Origin: Candidatus Brocadia sp.
Lineage (GTDB): Bacteria > Planctomycetota > Brocadiia > Brocadiales > Brocadiaceae
DNA length: 33,941 bases
NCBI GenBank assembly: GCA_013360945.1
Contig: JABWAQ010000052.1
Location: 1-33,941 of the forward strand
Direction: 5' to 3'
Position 1 is the first letter of the stretch; each line of letters opens with the position of its first letter. The notes beneath the pieces were generated by a model. That model was not told where the DNA came from, searched no databases, and worked only from the letters and a program-made list of their open reading frames with translations. Both the position numbers and the translations under genes were made by a program. Shown here in pieces: positions 7,607 to 14,357 of the stretch.

Positions 7607-10600
7607 ATGGGCGACATGGAACTGAAAAAAATATTTCTGGCATCGTCGTCTGAACTTATCGACGACCGCAAAGAATTCGAAATTTTCATCAACCGCAAAA
7701 ACAACGATTGGTTCAGGGATGAGGTATTTCTCAAACTGGTAATTTGGGAAGACTTTCTCGATGCGCTTTCGCAAACCCGGCTGCAGGACGAGTACAACAA
7801 GGCGATCACGCAATGCGATATCTTTGTCATGTTGTTCTGTACGAAGGTGGGAAAATACACCGAAGAAGAGTTTGAAACCGCATTCGGACAATTTAAGGCC
7901 ACGAACAAACCGTTGATATACACCTACTTCAAAGATGCCGAAATTACCACCGGCAGCGCCAACAAAGAAGACTTGATGAGCCTCTGGCGATTTCAAGAAA
8001 AACTTGGCAAACTGGGGCATTTTTATACCTCGTATAAAAATATCGAAGATCTGAAATTCAAATTCAACGCACAGTTGGACAAGCTGAAAGGTGAAGGGTT
8101 TTTTAAAAAAGGAAGCGTGAAGAACACAGGGAAGCCCCTGTGCCTGAACCGGTGAGTCCCGACCTTGTTGTTTCCCTCCGTACCGCATATCTGAACCGTA
8201 TCTTTGAAAGCAGCCGCCAGCTCTCTCTCGCCGGTGTTGACCCGAAGGCTGCAAGCAGTGAAAAAGAAGCACGGCTCAGCCTCGATGCCGTCTATACGGC
8301 GCTTCTCACCTTGACACCCGAGGCACACGAAGAGATGCAGCGGGCCGAATCGCCTGAAAAGAAAATCCAGCGCCAATCGGCATTAGAACAACTCAACCGG
8401 CATCCTTCTGGGCGACCCCGGGAGCGGCAAAAGCACCTTCGTCAATTTCGTAACGCTCTGTTTGTCGGGAGAACTCCTTGGACAAAAAGAACTCAATATC
8501 TCTTTGCTTACCAGGTCTTTACCCGTTGAAGGCGAAGAAAAAACGAAACCACAGGCATGGGATCACGGCGCCTTGCTGCCGGTTCGGATCATATTGCGCG
8601 ATTTTGCAGCCCAGGGGTTGCCGGCAGTTCGTGAAAAAGCCACCGCGGCGCATCTCTGAAAATTTATCGAATCCGACCTCCGTTCCGCCACCCTGGAAAA
8701 ATACGCTACACCGATGCAGGAAGAATTGCTGAAAACGGGCGGCATATTGCTCCTGGACGGATTGGATGAAATACCCGAAGCGGAACTCCGCAGGACACAA
8801 ATAAAACAGGTAGTTGAAGATTTTGCAAAGACATATCCTCGTTGCCGCATCATGGTCACAAGCCGGACGTATGCCTACCAAGAAGATTGGCGTTTATCCG
8901 GGTTCTCAGAAGCCATTCTGTCACCCTTTAACAAAGGTCAAATCAGCAGTTTTGTCGATCTCTGGTACGCCCATGTTTCAAGAGCCCGCGGTATGAACAG
9001 AGAAGATGCCGGAGGCAGGGCAAAACGATTGAAAGACGCTATTTTTAAGAGTGACCCACTTGTTTTCACTGGCAGAGCGACCCCTCCTCCTGACGCTCAT
9101 GGCATGCCTGCATGCATGGCGCGGTGGCAGCCTGCCGGAAAAACGGGAGGAGCTGTATGCAGACACCGTAGATTTGCTGCTGGATTGGTGGGAAAGCCAG
9201 CGCATTGTGCGGGACAGTGAAGGGAATCCGAAGAACCCACAACCCAGCCTGACAGAGTGGTTGAGGGTGGATCAGAAGAAGGTGCGTCATCTCCTCAATG
9301 AACTTGCATTTAAGGCACATCAATCCCAGCCGGAAGCCGTCGGCACTGCTGATATTCCCATGAAGGATCTTGTGAGCGGATTAATGGACATCAGCCAAAA
9401 TCCGGATGTAAAGTATAAGAGATTGGTAGAATACCTCAGCGATCGGGCCGGCATTCTCATACCGCGGAGTGTCAAAGTGTTTACCTTTGCACACCGCACC
9501 TTTCAGGAGTATCTGGCTGCGTGCCACCTTACGGATGACGACTTTCCGGAAAAACTTGCTCATCTTGCACGCACGGAACCGAACCGCTGGCGTGAAGTGA
9601 CCCTGCTTGCCGGCGCTAAGGCGGCAGGAGGGAGTGCTTATGCAATATGGGCGCTGGTTGAAGAACTTTGTAATTGTGAACCAGAAACCGTCAAAAATAG
9701 CATGGAAGATGCCTGGGGCGCCCATCTGGCTGCGCAGGCCATCGTGGAGACTGCCGACCTGGCAAAAATGAGTGAGGCAAACCGGAAAAAGGTGATAAGG
9801 ATAAAGCGTTGCCTTGAAAACATCCTCATCATAACGGGTTTCCCTCCCCGAGAGCGTGCTGCCGCTGGTGTTAATTTGGCGTTTCTTGGCGATGAAAGGC
9901 CGGGCGTAATAACGACTAAGGAAATGCAGTTTTGCTGTGTTCCCGGAGGTTCGTTTTGGATGGGAGAGGAAGAAGGGATGCATCAGAATGAAACCGTAGC
10001 ATATGATTTCTGGATTTCAAGGTACCCGGTTACGCAGGCACAATTTCTGGAATTTACAAGGGATAATGGATACAAGAATGAAAAATACTGGAAAGAGGCA
10101 AAGGATGCCGGTGTGTGGAAAGATGGAAAAATAAAAGAGTACTTTGAGGAATCATTCAGAGAGGAACTGTATCGATTTGGTGCTCCATTTACCTTGCCGA
10201 ATCATCCGGTAGTTGGTGTAACCTGGTACGAGGCGCTTGCATTCACCCGATGGTTAACGGAGAGATGGAAACAGCAGGGTATCCTGCCGGAAGATTGGGC
10301 GGTGAAGCTGCCCTCTGAGGCAGAATGGGAAAAGGCAGCGCGGGGTGGCTTAGAGATTCCTGTTCAACCACATAATGTAGCAATGGGAGATATAGAGAAG
10401 AATACCCGTTTGTCTATGAAGAGAAATGGAGCATCGCGGCGGTTGTATCCCTGGGGAAACGACCCTGATCCCAATCGCGCCAATTATGATGAAACGGGTA
10501 TTGGCGCTACCAGCGCCGTGGGTTGCTTTCCTGGAGGTGCGAGTCCCTATGGTTGTGAGGAGATGAGCGGTAATGTGTGGGAATGGACGCGAAGTCTTTG

Positions 10601-10802
10601 TAATGAATATCCGTATGACCCAAAGGACGGTAGAGAAAATCTGGAGGCATTAAAGAACTACGCTCGTGTTGTTCGTGGCGGGTTGTTCAACCATTATCTC
10701 AGGTACGCGCGTTGTCCCTGCCGCTTCTGGTTCAACCCGGGCTTCTGGGACGATCTCAGGGGTTTTCGTGTGATGTTGTCCCCATTTATCTCTGAACTCT
10801 GA
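7607..10802 (+). pseudogene. DGR target: TIR/DUF4062-like + NACHT NTPase + SUMF1-like domain, multiply broken
   Basis: Read across its lesions this is one protein of about 1,050 residues. The N-terminus (KKIFLASSSEL..DR..FE, CDIFVMLFCTKVGKYTEEEFE) resembles the TIR/DUF4062-like fold of conflict proteins. Next is a NACHT module: Walker [10 protein letters not shown] (about 8416), Walker B GILLLDGLDEIPE (about 8741), MVTSRT, RPLLLTLMACLHAW and a helical arm (FTFAHRTFQEYLAACHL). The C-terminus (from about 9925) is a SUMF1/FGE-like C-type-lectin fold (VPGGSFWMGEEEG, VTWYEALAFTRWL, LPSEAEWEKAARGG, EMSGNVWEWT, GFRVML) that ends in the variable repeat. Lesions: a frameshift in the T6/A6 run at 8099-8110, a frameshift with apparent loss just before Walker A (about 8400), TGA at 8657-8659 in place of a probable TGG, and a frameshift at the T4 run near 9065. 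Two are in homopolymers and could be read errors; the other two look real. Inferred role: a STAND-type sensor whose C-terminal surface was diversified. Confidence 0.85.
10665..10781 (+). repeat. DGR variable repeat (VR) in the SUMF1-like domain
   Basis: 117 nt aligning without gaps to the template at 11493-11609. The ends are identical (18 nt on the left, 21 nt on the right). In the middle there are 25 differences. 17 of them are at template adenines (12 to T, 3 to G, 2 to C) and 8 at other bases, 7 of these being transitions. In frame it encodes RVVRGGLFNHYLRYARC... to GFRVMLS, so the changed codons fall in the surface-exposed C-terminal part of the lectin fold. The invariant right end would be the initiation-of-mutagenic-homing region. 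Confidence 0.93.
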
Positions 10803-11084
10803 GCCCTCTGGACTCTGTATCTCTGCCGGGTTGTTCGGTGCCAAAGTATGGATTGTAGTGTCGATCCCACGATGGTATCGGAATTATAATAGTTTTTATG
10901 CGGTTTGTGAGGTGTGAACCATGAAGTCCCCCTTAGAAAAGGGGGATTCAGGGGGTTGTGTTTTTTCCCCGGTTATTTTACAACCCCCCAACCCCCTTTT
11001 TTAAGGGGGATTTTATTCCACGCCGAAACCCGATTAAGTGAAATGAATATGCCTATAAAATCAGGTTATTCACAGGAGGCAGAC
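10803..11084. repeat. Intergenic gap holding a CCCCCTT/AAGGGGG palindromic element
   Basis: Between the target gene and avd lies an imperfect long inverted repeat: left arm 10924-10960 (AAGTCCCCCTTAGAAAAGGG, continuing), right arm 10981-11014 (ending CCCCCTTTTTTAAGGGGGAT). A left flank reading GCGGTTTGTGAGGTGTGAA (10900-10918) recurs in similar form at 12871-12889. No gene is seen here. Confidence 0.7.
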
Positions 11085-11429
11085 ATGACACGTCAGGAAA
11101 TGCCAATTTTTACCAGGACGTTTGATTTTTTAAGCTGGCTTTTGCCAGCAACCAATCATTTTCCCAGGGCTCAGCGACATTCGTTTACCCGCAGGCTTTT
11201 AGACGCCGCCTTTGATTTGAGGGAGAGACTGGAGGAGGCAAACCTCAGGCGAGGCAGTGACCGGCAGCAGCGATTACAGCTGGCTGATGAGGCGCTGACT
11301 AAGGTGCGGTTATACCTGCGATTGGCAGTACGCTGGGGCTGGCTTTCAGACGGTCAATATCAGCATGTTGCCGAAATGGTGGTTGAGATCGGTCGTTTGC
11401 TGGGTGGGTGGAAAAAGGTATGCGTTTAA
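11085..11429 (+). CDS. avd: DGR accessory variability determinant (Avd-like four-helix protein)
   Basis: 114 residues, the usual Avd size, all helical in character and basic (RRLLDAAFDLRERLEEANLRRGSDRQQRLQLAD..., then LTKVRLYLRLAVRWGWLSDGQYQH, EMVVEIGRLLGGW). Avd belongs to the S23/four-helix-bundle family, forms a pentamer, binds the DGR reverse transcriptase and template RNA, and is needed for cDNA synthesis. The ATG at 11085 has a strong GGAGG 6 bases upstream; the open frame could be extended to 10914 but would run through a palindromic repeat. Its place between the VR-bearing gene and the template repeat is the standard DGR order. The frame is intact, unlike its partners. Confidence 0.87.
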   Translation: MTRQEMPIFTRTFDFLSWLLPATNHFPRAQRHSFTRRLLDAAFDLRERLEEANLRRGSDRQQRLQLADEALTKVRLYLRLAVRWGWLSDGQYQHVAEMVVEIGRLLGGWKKVCV

Positions 11430-11446
11430 ATCAGGAGGAGGTATCA

Positions 11447-11524
11447 ATGCGGTGCCTTCCCTTATTTTTTCGGGGGATAGGTTCAAAGCGCCCGTGTTGT
11501 TCGTGGCGGGTCGTTCAACAATAA
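11447..11524 (+). other. Possible 25-codon ORF running into the template repeat
   Basis: A very strong Shine-Dalgarno-like AGGAGGAGG (11433-11441) precedes an ATG at 11447. The frame stays open for 25 codons and stops at TAA inside the template repeat (11522-11524). The peptide ([16 protein letters not shown]...) has no recognisable character. The purine tract may instead be part of the structured DGR RNA. Coding is doubtful. Confidence 0.2.
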
Positions 11525-11609
11525 TCACAGGAACGTGCGTTGTTCCTGCCGCAATAGGAACAATCCGGACAACAGGAACAACAACGTGGGTTTTCGTGTG
11601 ATGTTGTCC
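11493..11609 (+). repeat. DGR template repeat (TR)
   Basis: 117-nt non-coding template, 64 bases after avd. Read in the VR frame it is packed with AAC/AAT codons (11 of 39; e.g. [16 protein letters not shown]), the hallmark of DGR templates, because adenine randomisation of AAY codons gives many amino acids and never a stop. It holds 28 adenines, 17 of which differ in the VR. An in-frame TAG at 11478-11480 just upstream shows that it is not the end of a second SUMF1 gene. Confidence 0.94.
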
Positions 11610-11800
11610 ACATTTTTCACCTGCGGAATTGCCAGACGCCCTTTGTGATAAGGGTTTCTGGCCGAAGCGATAAATGGCGGAACCTATTCCTGGCCGCATC
11701 CGGGATACACGGATCGGGCAAATAGCAACTGCCCCGTCCCCCTGGACGCAAGTCCCGGGACGGGGCTTATTAAGACACCCGTAATGAGCGTCCCGAAGCC

Positions 11801-11833
11801 ATGAAATACTATAAACAGTATGAAGTTATACGG
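11801..11833 (+). pseudogene. Possible 5' scrap of the DGR reverse transcriptase
   Basis: The ATG at 11801 reads MKYYKQYEVI before a palindromic repeat begins. DGR reverse transcriptases often start with a similar short basic/aromatic stretch, and the place, about 190 bases after the template, is right. Ten codons are too few to prove it. Confidence 0.25.
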
Positions 11834-11869
11834 GGTGGCACGGACAAGCTGTGCTTGTCCGTGCCACCC
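11833..11869. repeat. Palindromic repeat, GGCACGGACAAG family
   Basis: A perfect 16-bp inverted repeat (11833-11848 and 11854-11869) with a 5-nt loop: GGGTGGCACGGACAAG / CTTGTCCGTGCCACCC. A looser copy lies at 12086-12119 and a degenerate one near 20909-20944. Confidence 0.85.
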
Positions 11870-11919
11870 TGTTTATCAGTCTAAATATTCACTGATTGTG
11901 AACCCTTTAGGTATATGTT

Positions 11920-11994
11920 GTAGGGGCGAAGCATTTGCTGTCCAGAACATAAGATTACATTCAAATCTAATATCAGCAAATGCTTCGCCCCTAC
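11920..11994. repeat. Palindromic repeat, GGGGCGAAGCATTTGC family
   Basis: A perfect 21-bp inverted repeat (arms 11920-11940 and 11974-11994) with a 33-nt AT-rich centre. A second copy of the same family is at 13191-13260. The form fits a MITE-like element without its own gene. Confidence 0.87.
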
Positions 11995-12085
11995 GTGTGA
12001 CTGCAAACAAATCGACGAAGTCCTAATTAAACAAGGACAGTGCAAGAATAACCATTGCAGGGACAAAGCATGAAGCAGTTTCCCA

Positions 12086-12119
12086 GAGGCACGGACAAGC
12101 ATCGCTTGTCTATGCCGCC
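12086..12119. repeat. Palindromic repeat, second GGCACGGACAAG copy
   Basis: GGCACGGACAAGC...GCTTGTCTATGCC forms an imperfect hairpin and shares its left arm with the element at 11833-11869. Confidence 0.7.
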
Positions 12120-12328
12120 CCGGGAGAATAACTGTAATGAAGGAGCTATACAAATTATAATTTGTAATCCTTTGAGTATAATGCCCCTGAACAAAAAGAG
12201 ACGTGGCTGATGTCTTGCTACCCTAGAGTATTACTCTACAAAAACATCTTTTTTCTGTGAGGTTTTCTTTGTGACCTTCGTGTAAAACTTTGTGTCCTTT
12301 GTGGTTGACCTTTTTTGTTGCGGCTGTG

Positions 12329-12706
12329 CTGCGTTATGTGGATGATGTTCTCTTCTTTGCAAAGGACAAGGCCATATTGTGGCAATGGAAAGAGCTAATT
12401 CAGGAAAGATTACAACAATTACGGTTGACCATACATCCCCATGCGCATCCCCGTCCTGTTGAAGAGGGCATACCGTTTCTTGGTTTTATCGTGTATCCTC
12501 AGCGAAGACGTTTGAAACGGCGCAAGGGCATTCATTTCCAGCGAAAGCTCAGAAGCCTGCTGACAAGGGTTTCTCATGGCGGCATCCCTTTGTCAAGGGT
12601 AAGCGCCAGTGTCCTTGGCTGGGTGAACCATGTGCGATACGGGAACACCATTGGGTTGCGCAAGTCGGTATTGGGAAAATTATCTCTCAGGAAAGACAGA
12701 AAGTGA
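12329..12706 (+). pseudogene. DGR reverse transcriptase, C-terminal remnant only
   Basis: About 125 codons begin at the catalytic motif LRYVDDVLFF (the YxDD box of retroelement reverse transcriptases). They continue with the DGR-type thumb: a WKELIQERLQQLRLTIHP segment, then GIPFLGFIVYPQRRRLKRRK, HFQRKLRSLL and the end GWVNHVRYGNTIGLRKSVLG. A complete DGR RT has about 350-400 residues, so the fingers and most of the palm, including the first catalytic aspartate, are missing. The upstream frame continues to about 12290 but is low-quality sequence with no RT character. The reading frame of the remnant is otherwise intact to TGA 12704-12706. Without the N-terminal part it cannot be active; mutagenesis here would need an RT supplied in trans. 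Confidence 0.9.
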
Positions 12707-12720
12707 GGTGAAGGAATACC

Positions 12721-12882
12721 ATGATATTGGAAATGCTTCTTGCAAAGGCGCTTGAAAGCGCAATTTCCACACTCGCAAAGGCCGGCGTTGATAACGTAAT
12801 TGAAAAACTAAAAAATTTACTCGGAGGAACGGATGAAAAAAAGCGTCGCTTGGAATTATCATGGTTTTCGCGCAGTTTGTAG
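12721..12882 (+). CDS. 53-codon ORF, probably the N-terminal stub of a truncated gene
   Basis: The ATG at 12721 follows AAGGA at good spacing and lies 14 bases after the RT remnant. The product (MILEMLLAKALESAISTLAK, then AGVDNVIEKLKNLLGGTDEKKRRLEL) is a clean amphipathic helical start that looks like the beginning of a larger protein. It ends where a palindromic repeat flank begins (WFSRSL-stop, 12864-12882). I do not recognise the family; an N-terminal adaptor helix of a STAND or other conflict protein is one possibility. Confidence 0.4.
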   Translation: MILEMLLAKALESAISTLAKAGVDNVIEKLKNLLGGTDEKKRRLELSWFSRSL

Positions 12883-13097
12883 GGTATGAATCCTGAAAGT
12901 CCCCCTGAAAAAAGGGGGCTGGGGAGCATACGTGTTAAGTTAAGCGATTGGGTTGGGGGGGCATGGACAAACCATGTTTCTGTATGCCTTGAACAGGGAT
13001 AGTTCCTCTGTGTCTTTCTTGCAACACATAACGGCAAAATCCACTGGAAACATGGCTAACCACTGTCCCCCGCTGGCGGGGGATCAAGGGGGTGGAA
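12864..13097. repeat. CCCCCT/AGGGGG palindromic element, two arms
   Basis: The left part (AAGTCCCCCTGAAAAAAGGG, from about 12898) has the same left flank as the element at 10924. The right part is at about 13065-13097 (TGTCCCCCGCTGGCGGGGGA and AAGGGGGTGG). About 140 bases of unrecognised DNA lie between. The element truncates the ORF at 12721. Confidence 0.6.
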
Positions 13098-13385
13098 AAG
13101 GAACACGAAAATAATTCGGGAAAAAACATAATCCCTGTAACAATTTCGTTTTTTGAAAAATTTCAATAATAGCGGTGTTTACCGCTCAGGGTAGGGCGAA
13201 GCATTTGCTTTCATTGTCAAAAATGCATGCATACTCAATCAGGCAAATGCTTCGCCCCTCCTTTTCCTGGTTTTCTTTTGCCGGTTCAATCGTCCTCAAT
13301 TGAGCCGAAACAGTTGGTATGATTCCGCCCCGAGCACAAGTTCAGGCCTTAGGTTGCCTATCTTATGAAAAACCCGTGTTTACCC
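12883..13385. other. Intergenic stretch with repeats only
   Basis: Besides the two palindromic elements (12864-13097 and 13191-13260) I see no gene, RNA or other feature here before the argB promoter. Confidence 0.6.
13191..13260. repeat. Palindromic repeat, second GGGCGAAGCATTTGC copy
   Basis: Arms at 13191-13208 and 13243-13260; the core 15 bp (GGGCGAAGCATTTGC / GCAAATGCTTCGCCC) match perfectly, with a 34-nt centre unlike that of the copy at 11920-11994. Confidence 0.85.
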
Positions 13386-13413
13386 TTGACACGAAAACCT
13401 CTTTTGTTATAAT
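13386..13413 (+). promoter_or_regulatory. Consensus sigma-70 promoter of the arg operon
   Basis: TTGACA (13386-13391), 16-nt spacer, TATAAT (13408-13413). Both boxes match consensus. The predicted start is near 13420, about 50 bases before the argB ATG. No ARG-box palindrome was recognised. Confidence 0.8.
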
Positions 13414-13469
13414 TTTGACTTCTTTTAACATCGTTCGCTTTTTAGTAGGAGAGAAAAAGTATTTAGCTC

Positions 13470-14357
13470 ATGGAAAATGCCATACGCAAGGCGGGGATAC
13501 TCATTGAAGCCCTTCCTTACATACGATCATTCAGGAACAAAGTAGTTGTTATCAAATTTGGCGGAGGGGCAATGTCCAGCGATGAAGTGCTCACCAACGT
13601 GCTCCAGGACATTGTCTTTATGAAGACCGTCGGCATTTTGCCCATCCTGGTGCATGGCGGCGGCCCTCATATCAGCCAGGAGATGACACGGAGGGGGTTG
13701 AGTCCAAAGTTTGTGGAGGGGCATAGGATTACCGACCATGAGACCCTGGAGATAGCCAAAGACGTCCTCATTAATCAGATCAGCGCCTCTATCGTAAAGA
13801 AGATTTCTGAATTGGGGAATGAGGCTGCCTGTATTTGGGAAAATGGATATTGTCCACTCAGGGCAGAGAAACACTACATAGAAACCAGGACAGATCGCGG
13901 TGAATTGAAAAAATTGGATATTGGCTTTGTTGGCAAAGTTACTTCTATTGATAAGGATCGTTTTTTGAATTTGTGTAATTCATGCACCATCCCGATTGTG
14001 CCGCCTATTGCAAAAGGCGACAACGGAGACGTCTATAATGTTAATGCGGACAACGTTGCTGCGTTTATCGCAAAGGCGCTTGGTGCGGAAAAGCTTGTAT
14101 TTCTTTCCAATACCCATGGTATCATGACACGGCCAAAAGATGAGACGTCTTTTGCATCGACGTTGCACGAAGATGAGGTTCACTCACTCATCGATAAAAA
14201 GGTAATTAGCGAGGGCATGCTCCCCAAGGCATTGGCCTGTATCAGTGCGGTGAAGGCAGGGGTAAAGAAGGCGCATATTATCAATGGACTAATCCCTCAT
14301 GCGCTGTTATTGGAAATATTTACCGATAAGGGTGTCGGTACGCAGATTATCGTATAA
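13470..14357 (+). CDS. argB: Acetylglutamate kinase
   Basis: 295 residues. It phosphorylates N-acetyl-L-glutamate with ATP, the second step of arginine synthesis and usually the arginine-inhibited one. The amino-acid kinase fold is clear: VVVIKFGGGAM near the N-terminus (phosphate loop), VHGGGPHIS (substrate glycine loop), a central NVNADNVAAFIAKALGAEKL and the C-terminal EGMLPKALACISAVKAGVKKAHIING. The N-terminal helix (AIRKAGILIEALPYIRSF) is the type that mediates hexamer formation in arginine-sensitive kinases, so feedback control is likely. The ATG at 13470 has AGGAGAG upstream. First gene of a long same-strand run. Confidence 0.97.
   Translation: MENAIRKAGILIEALPYIRSFRNKVVVIKFGGGAMSSDEVLTNVLQDIVFMKTVGILPILVHGGGPHISQEMTRRGLSPKFVEGHRITDHETLEIAKDVLINQISASIVKKISELGNEAACIWENGYCPLRAEKHYIETRTDRGELKKLDIGFVGKVTSIDKDRFLNLCNSCTIPIVPPIAKGDNGDVYNVNADNVAAFIAKALGAEKLVFLSNTHGIMTRPKDETSFASTLHEDEVHSLIDKKVISEGMLPKALACISAVKAGVKKAHIINGLIPHALLLEIFTDKGVGTQIIV

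Follow-up and report, generated by a model that had tools for sequence, protein, structure and literature searches.

The question raised by this locus is whether a diversity-generating retroelement (DGR) is still at work in it, or whether only the traces of one are left. The window, i.e., the whole stretch of 33,941 nucleotides from Candidatus Brocadia sp. (contig JABWAQ010000052.1) that was analysed, contains two similar repeats, a gene for the accessory protein Avd and reverse transcriptase (RT) sequence, and an initial annotation regarded this as the complete layout of a DGR. DGRs with STAND/NACHT-CLec targets have been described in multicellular bacteria, for instance DGR 3 and DGR 6 of Thiohalocapsa PB-PSB1 (PMC10907252). 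As detailed below, the most likely reading, with a probability of roughly 0.87, is that the window locus is what remains of a DGR which once diversified the FGE (C-type-lectin-like) sensor domain at the C-terminus of a NACHT protein.

The template repeat (TR, 11493-11609, + strand) and the variable repeat (VR, 10665-10781, + strand) are 117 nt each and align without gaps. They differ at 17 of the 28 TR adenines and at 8 of the 89 other bases (Fisher one-sided p = 7.8e-8), and these counts, already given in the initial annotation, were reproduced on recount. It also described identical ends of 18 and 21 nt; the ends are indeed identical, while the lengths measured are 19 and 22 nt. When the TR region was used as query against the window's own genome, the VR was found at E = 1.2e-24, and the other matches were a 33-nt stretch on contig C83 and a weak one on C119 (E = 0.67). 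The TR is also supported by homologous TRs. As expected of a DGR, the VR occupies the C-terminal region of a coding target, close to the 3' end of the FGE open reading frame (9051-10802).

Avd is found between the VR and the TR, as first annotated. Its open frame (11085-11429, + strand) scores 85.4 bits against NCBIfam DivGenRetAVD (cut-off 80) and 4.6e-16 against Pfam bAvd, so that the accessory protein of a DGR is present, and it is 84% identical to the Avd of a relative, genome G039. The RT sequence reported downstream is of the DGR type, but it is a C-terminal piece only (12320-12706, + strand). It begins just before the YVDD motif and corresponds to positions 222-339 of the 340 in the RT profile, to positions 149-203 of the 205 in Pfam RVT_1, and to residues 230-350 of the 351-aa G039 RT (61% identity by tblastn). 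The YVDD motif is thus retained while about the first 220 residues are missing, and neither tblastn nor an unfiltered six-frame profile search of 11400-13500 gave any match to the front part. An aspartate at position 129, which we take to be the catalytic residue of motif A, is invariant in eight aligned RTs and falls in the missing part. Since the RT is incomplete, the locus is classed as a DGR remnant and not as a working DGR, and the view that the layout is complete had to be abandoned, as the target frame is broken as well.

Where homologous loci start their RT, the window has palindromic, MITE-like inverted and direct repeats (11827-12122, no strand assigned). Rfam matches at 11819-11885 were sub-threshold miRNA models sitting on the palindromic repeat and were set aside. 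The possibility of a split RT, whose front part would be encoded at another site, was also considered, but the RVT_1 front-part match on contig C154 resembles the intron-like RT of C116 and not a DGR RT; outside the locus, the genome sequences that match the front part are those of intron-like RTs and of a second, distant DGR on C83. The start of a second target at 12721-12881 was rejected because its 53-aa frame matched none of the loci compared.

A scan of the named genomes using the RT piece gave 14 loci, in MAGs labelled Chloroflexota/Anaerolineae, Myxococcales, Nitrospirales, Halieaceae, Bacteroidales, Desulfobacterales, and others. Many of them display the order NACHT-FGE target(s), Avd, TR, RT. 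Twelve loci with an RT front part were examined (11 of the named loci and that of G039); the RT frame has at least 350 residues in ten of these, and about 300 in L029 and L039. Seventeen TR/VR pairs were found in ten of the 12 loci, L028 and L038 being without a pair. About half to seven tenths of the adenines are changed in these pairs. The pooled change at other bases is 21/1482, with zero to three per pair except for the second target of L031 (7/95), and this baseline leans low since the number of mismatches outside adenines is capped in the scan. The changes in the homologous loci scanned were not spread evenly over all bases, and the same parts in the same order, together with the adenine bias, bear out the original assignment of the window pair to the DGR type. 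The non-adenine change in the window pair (8/89, or 5/64 by the clipped scan method) exceeds that of the pooled pairs; however, the L031 pair means that such an excess alone is no proof of decay.

An intact homologous locus is that of G039 (L041), a genome of the same taxonomic order, with the arrangement target-Avd-TR-RT-target. It resembles the window in its Avd, in an alignable TR and spacer RNA, and in NACHT-FGE targets, but differs from it in having a full-length RT of 351 aa, two open targets, and repeats that are changed at 16/32 and 18/32 adenines and at 0/91 and 0/90 other bases. When Avd was searched for in the 59 genomes of relatives (own genome included), eight were matched, and only the G039 match was close; the others were at most 30% identical. 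Two further loci may be mentioned. On a contig listed as viral (IMG/VR; L089) a related DGR is found, its targets being NACHT-FGE-like and its Avd lying on the strand opposite the RT. On contig C17 of genome G041 (L078, 7408-10602) there is an open NACHT-FGE gene with a VR-like end and no Avd or RT match within the 17 kb examined; it is perhaps a remote or orphan target.

The history of the locus within the genus can be followed from argB, which was located in all 11 genus genomes (11/11, window genome included). In eight of the ten relatives the sigma-54-regulator gene and argB are 94-192 bases apart, while about 5.9 kb separates them in the window; judged from this spacing, the DGR locus stands as an island of this size in the genus. 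The regulator gene was unmatched within the stretch of G002 examined. The G007 contig begins inside a remnant, where a VR-bearing FGE stub precedes argB (L061 225-692, contig C30), and a one-base insertion in this VR changes the frame. With this inserted base omitted, at one of five equally good places, the G007 VR differs from the window TR at 18/28 adenines and 5/89 other bases (p = 4e-10); the adenine bias thus recurs in a relative as well as in the homologous pairs. The window and G007 VRs differ from each other at 19 of the 28 TR-adenine positions and at ten of the 89 others, a pattern that fits the expectation if the DGR was active after the lineages parted.

With the G007 VR and the G039 TR as references, six of the eight non-adenine mismatches point to a change in the VR of the window, and two (positions 63 and 94) to one in its TR. 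In those six G007 has the TR base, while the G039 TR agrees in three and shows a third base in the other three, so that the assignment of the latter depends on G007 alone. Six mismatches look private to the window VR and two to the TR, as would be expected once activity had ceased. For the FGE stretch ahead of the VR (101 codons) omega between the window and G007 is 0.30, compared with 0.07 for argB (295 codons), indicating that constraint persisted during a portion of the period after the lineages separated. For Avd the synonymous sites were saturated in the window comparisons, and the rate test hence gave no omega. On contig C1 of G029 (L080, 6977-7041) a 54-55 nt match to the 3' end of the VR/TR was seen, with no FGE match in the stretch examined; it is perhaps a smaller relic. 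A search for PF18582 (hydrazine synthase alpha), as a marker of anammox, gave no match in the window genome, and none in the controls either.

For the repeats one might also invoke plain duplication followed by divergence, with no DGR involved, as some change has occurred at bases other than adenine (8/89). This is hardly credible, given the adenine bias within the window (p = 8e-8) and against the G007 VR (4e-10), the adjoining Avd and DGR-type RT sequence, and the zero non-adenine changes in the G039 repeats. The adenine bias is most likely a record of past DGR activity.

When it comes to the target gene, it is spread over several frames, all on the + strand. The part of NACHT ahead of the P-loop is found in frame 1 (8170-8401) and the part from the P-loop onward in frame 2 (8402-9043), as revealed by tblastn of the G041 and G039 homologues for the former, and by tblastn and the open-frame list for the latter; the boundary between the two is approximate, and an in-frame stop is found at 8657-8659. 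The C-terminal part with the FGE-sulfatase (C-type-lectin-like) domain (PF03781, 1.8e-42) follows in frame 3 (9051-10802 in the open-frame list), where the tblastn match of the homologues begins at 9054. Compared with the open homologues in G039 (1086 aa) and G041 (an open frame of 1065 residues), the window target thus shows two changes of frame and a single stop. Its NACHT piece scores below the Pfam cut-off, but the G041 homologue and target 1 of G039 score above it. In an NLR-like (STAND/NACHT) protein a single open frame spans the NACHT ATPase and the C-terminal sensor, which is not the case in the window.

Further upstream, a TIR/DUF4062-like frame (7607-8155, + strand) either encodes the N-terminus of the target or is a small gene of its own ahead of it; its matches to TIR_2 (7.9e-5) and DUF4062 (0.0014) are both below the Pfam cut-offs. 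It is read in frame 2, and the switch from there to frame 1 may mark a genuine boundary between two genes. Its product is 72% identical to a G007 protein encoded on another contig, and its best plasmid match is annotated as DUF4062. In the plasmid comparison this was the single match, covering 5% of the island, in the DUF4062 part. The G007 TIR gene (contig C32) was rejected as a part of the same island, as its surroundings are different and lack the sigma-54-regulator gene.

A structured spacer is known for the DGR of phage BPP-1 (PMC12875486). In the window, a structured spacer RNA is predicted between the TR and the RT (11608-11766, + strand; own fold z = -4.3). The spacer is about 160 nt long and conserved in 13 homologous loci (the window, L027-L032, L035-L039, and L041). 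The predicted structure has 28 pairs, 23 of which covary with changes on both sides; 96.1% of the cells in the alignment pair, and none of 500 shuffles reached the observed values. A slid control gave at most 54% paired, a comparison that favours the structure since it was derived from the same alignment. The window spacer forms 25 of the 28 pairs and has a covariance score of 128 bits, within a range of 81-145 across the 13 loci. The RNA expected 3' of a TR is in this sense present as a predicted, covarying structure.

One independent locus was found using the covariance model, the viral-contig locus L089 (E = 1.6e-4), where the spacer lies beside Avd and RT. Among the 59 genomes of relatives two were matched (own and G039), and among 392 genomes of the phylum four, three of them weakly (E 1e-4 to 2e-3). 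None of the queried DGR proteins was found within the surrounding 1.7-3.2 kb of these three, which are therefore probably chance matches. The model gave no score in the C83 DGR (L016), the G041 DGR (L081), or the viral-contig loci L090 and L091, indicating that it marks one DGR group only. Rfam gave no gathering-level match in the window, and the spacer form of this group was found neither in Rfam nor in the literature searched.

The second DGR of the genome (L016 17500-19987, contig C83 of G000) consists of an HRDC-domain gene, Avd (140 aa), an open RT (339 aa) and a TR downstream, and the contig ends inside a VR-like stretch, with the VR end at the edge. Its Avd scores above the DivGenRetAVD cut-off, and trans activity has been proposed for RT-less DGR loci in PB-PSB1 (PMC10907252), so that the window locus might in principle still be diversified in trans from C83. 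However, identity is low, at about 41% between the RTs of C83 and G039 and about 20% between the Avd proteins of C83 and the window, the spacer model is silent in L016, the window VR has its best TR in the adjoining one while the C83 TR matches over 33 nt only, and the target gene is broken in any case. From these comparisons it seems unlikely that the C83 DGR serves the window locus, and continued diversification in this way is judged very improbable. A more far-reaching and highly speculative idea is that the spacer represents an as yet uncatalogued type of priming RNA common to NACHT-FGE DGRs of several phyla, and that the RNA, TR and Avd of the window locus have survived the loss of their own RT, working as guide and accessory for an RT supplied in trans.

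The reading of the locus as a decayed DGR would imply the following course of events. By analogy with BPP-1, an RNA with the TR and the structured spacer would have been bound by RT and Avd, primed and copied into cDNA with errors at the template adenines, and this cDNA would then have replaced the VR by retrohoming. What is directly observed is the adenine-biased differences in the window, the same-genus stub and the homologous loci, as well as the conserved gene order and spacer RNA. The activity would have ceased when the RT lost about its first 220 residues, where the repeats are now found, and the target gained two frame changes and a stop; MITE-like arrays that replace DGR RTs have a precedent (PMC10907252). 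Afterwards, bases other than adenine would also have changed in both the TR and the VR. G007 and the window genome probably inherited the island from their common ancestor, and it would then have decayed separately in both lineages. Present DGR activity is not supported. Against decay speak the Avd gene, whose frame is open and whose product shares 84% identity with that of G039, and the score of the spacer RNA, which is within the range of the others; either the decay is recent or part of the locus is still used.

The intact look of Avd and the spacer RNA would also agree with the assembly showing one degraded allele, or errors, while other cells carry an intact, active DGR at the same place. 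The genome is a draft of 196 contigs, and in Thiohalocapsa PB-PSB1, strains whose RT is disrupted live alongside others that have it intact (PMC10907252). This explanation is nevertheless considered improbable, as the lesions in RT and target are independent and the TR and VR have drifted at non-adenine bases. The neighbouring genes for the sigma-54-regulator, an amino-acid kinase, an aminotransferase and OTCase are in addition open with good Pfam family matches, so the contig is not generally error-ridden, even if the frame changes could partly be assembly errors.

The window locus, taken as a relic, is a decayed member of the already known NACHT/STAND-CLec kind of DGR. As in the PB-PSB1 DGRs, the targets are of the STAND/NACHT type and hold the VR in a C-terminal CLec/FGE domain, targets occur in duplicate within a locus, a genome has several DGRs, and MITE-like arrays stand in place of DGR parts (PMC10907252); unlike the PB-PSB1 targets, the window target is itself broken and its upstream part is TIR/DUF4062-like. 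The order Avd-TR-spacer-RT, the structured spacer 3' of the TR and the adenine-specific change are shared with the phage BPP-1 DGR (PMC12875486), while the window target is a cellular NLR-like gene and not a phage tail protein, and the window RT is truncated.

The locus would document the death of a hypermutating immune-type system, in which the RT and the target have been lost while the template, the RNA and the accessory gene remain, and a stub is left beside the same gene, argB, in a related species. With the window, the stub and an intact homologue at hand, it can be said for most of the TR/VR mismatches which of the two copies has changed. The model of the spacer RNA may be of use in finding DGRs of the same group and in testing how the synthesis of their cDNA is primed.
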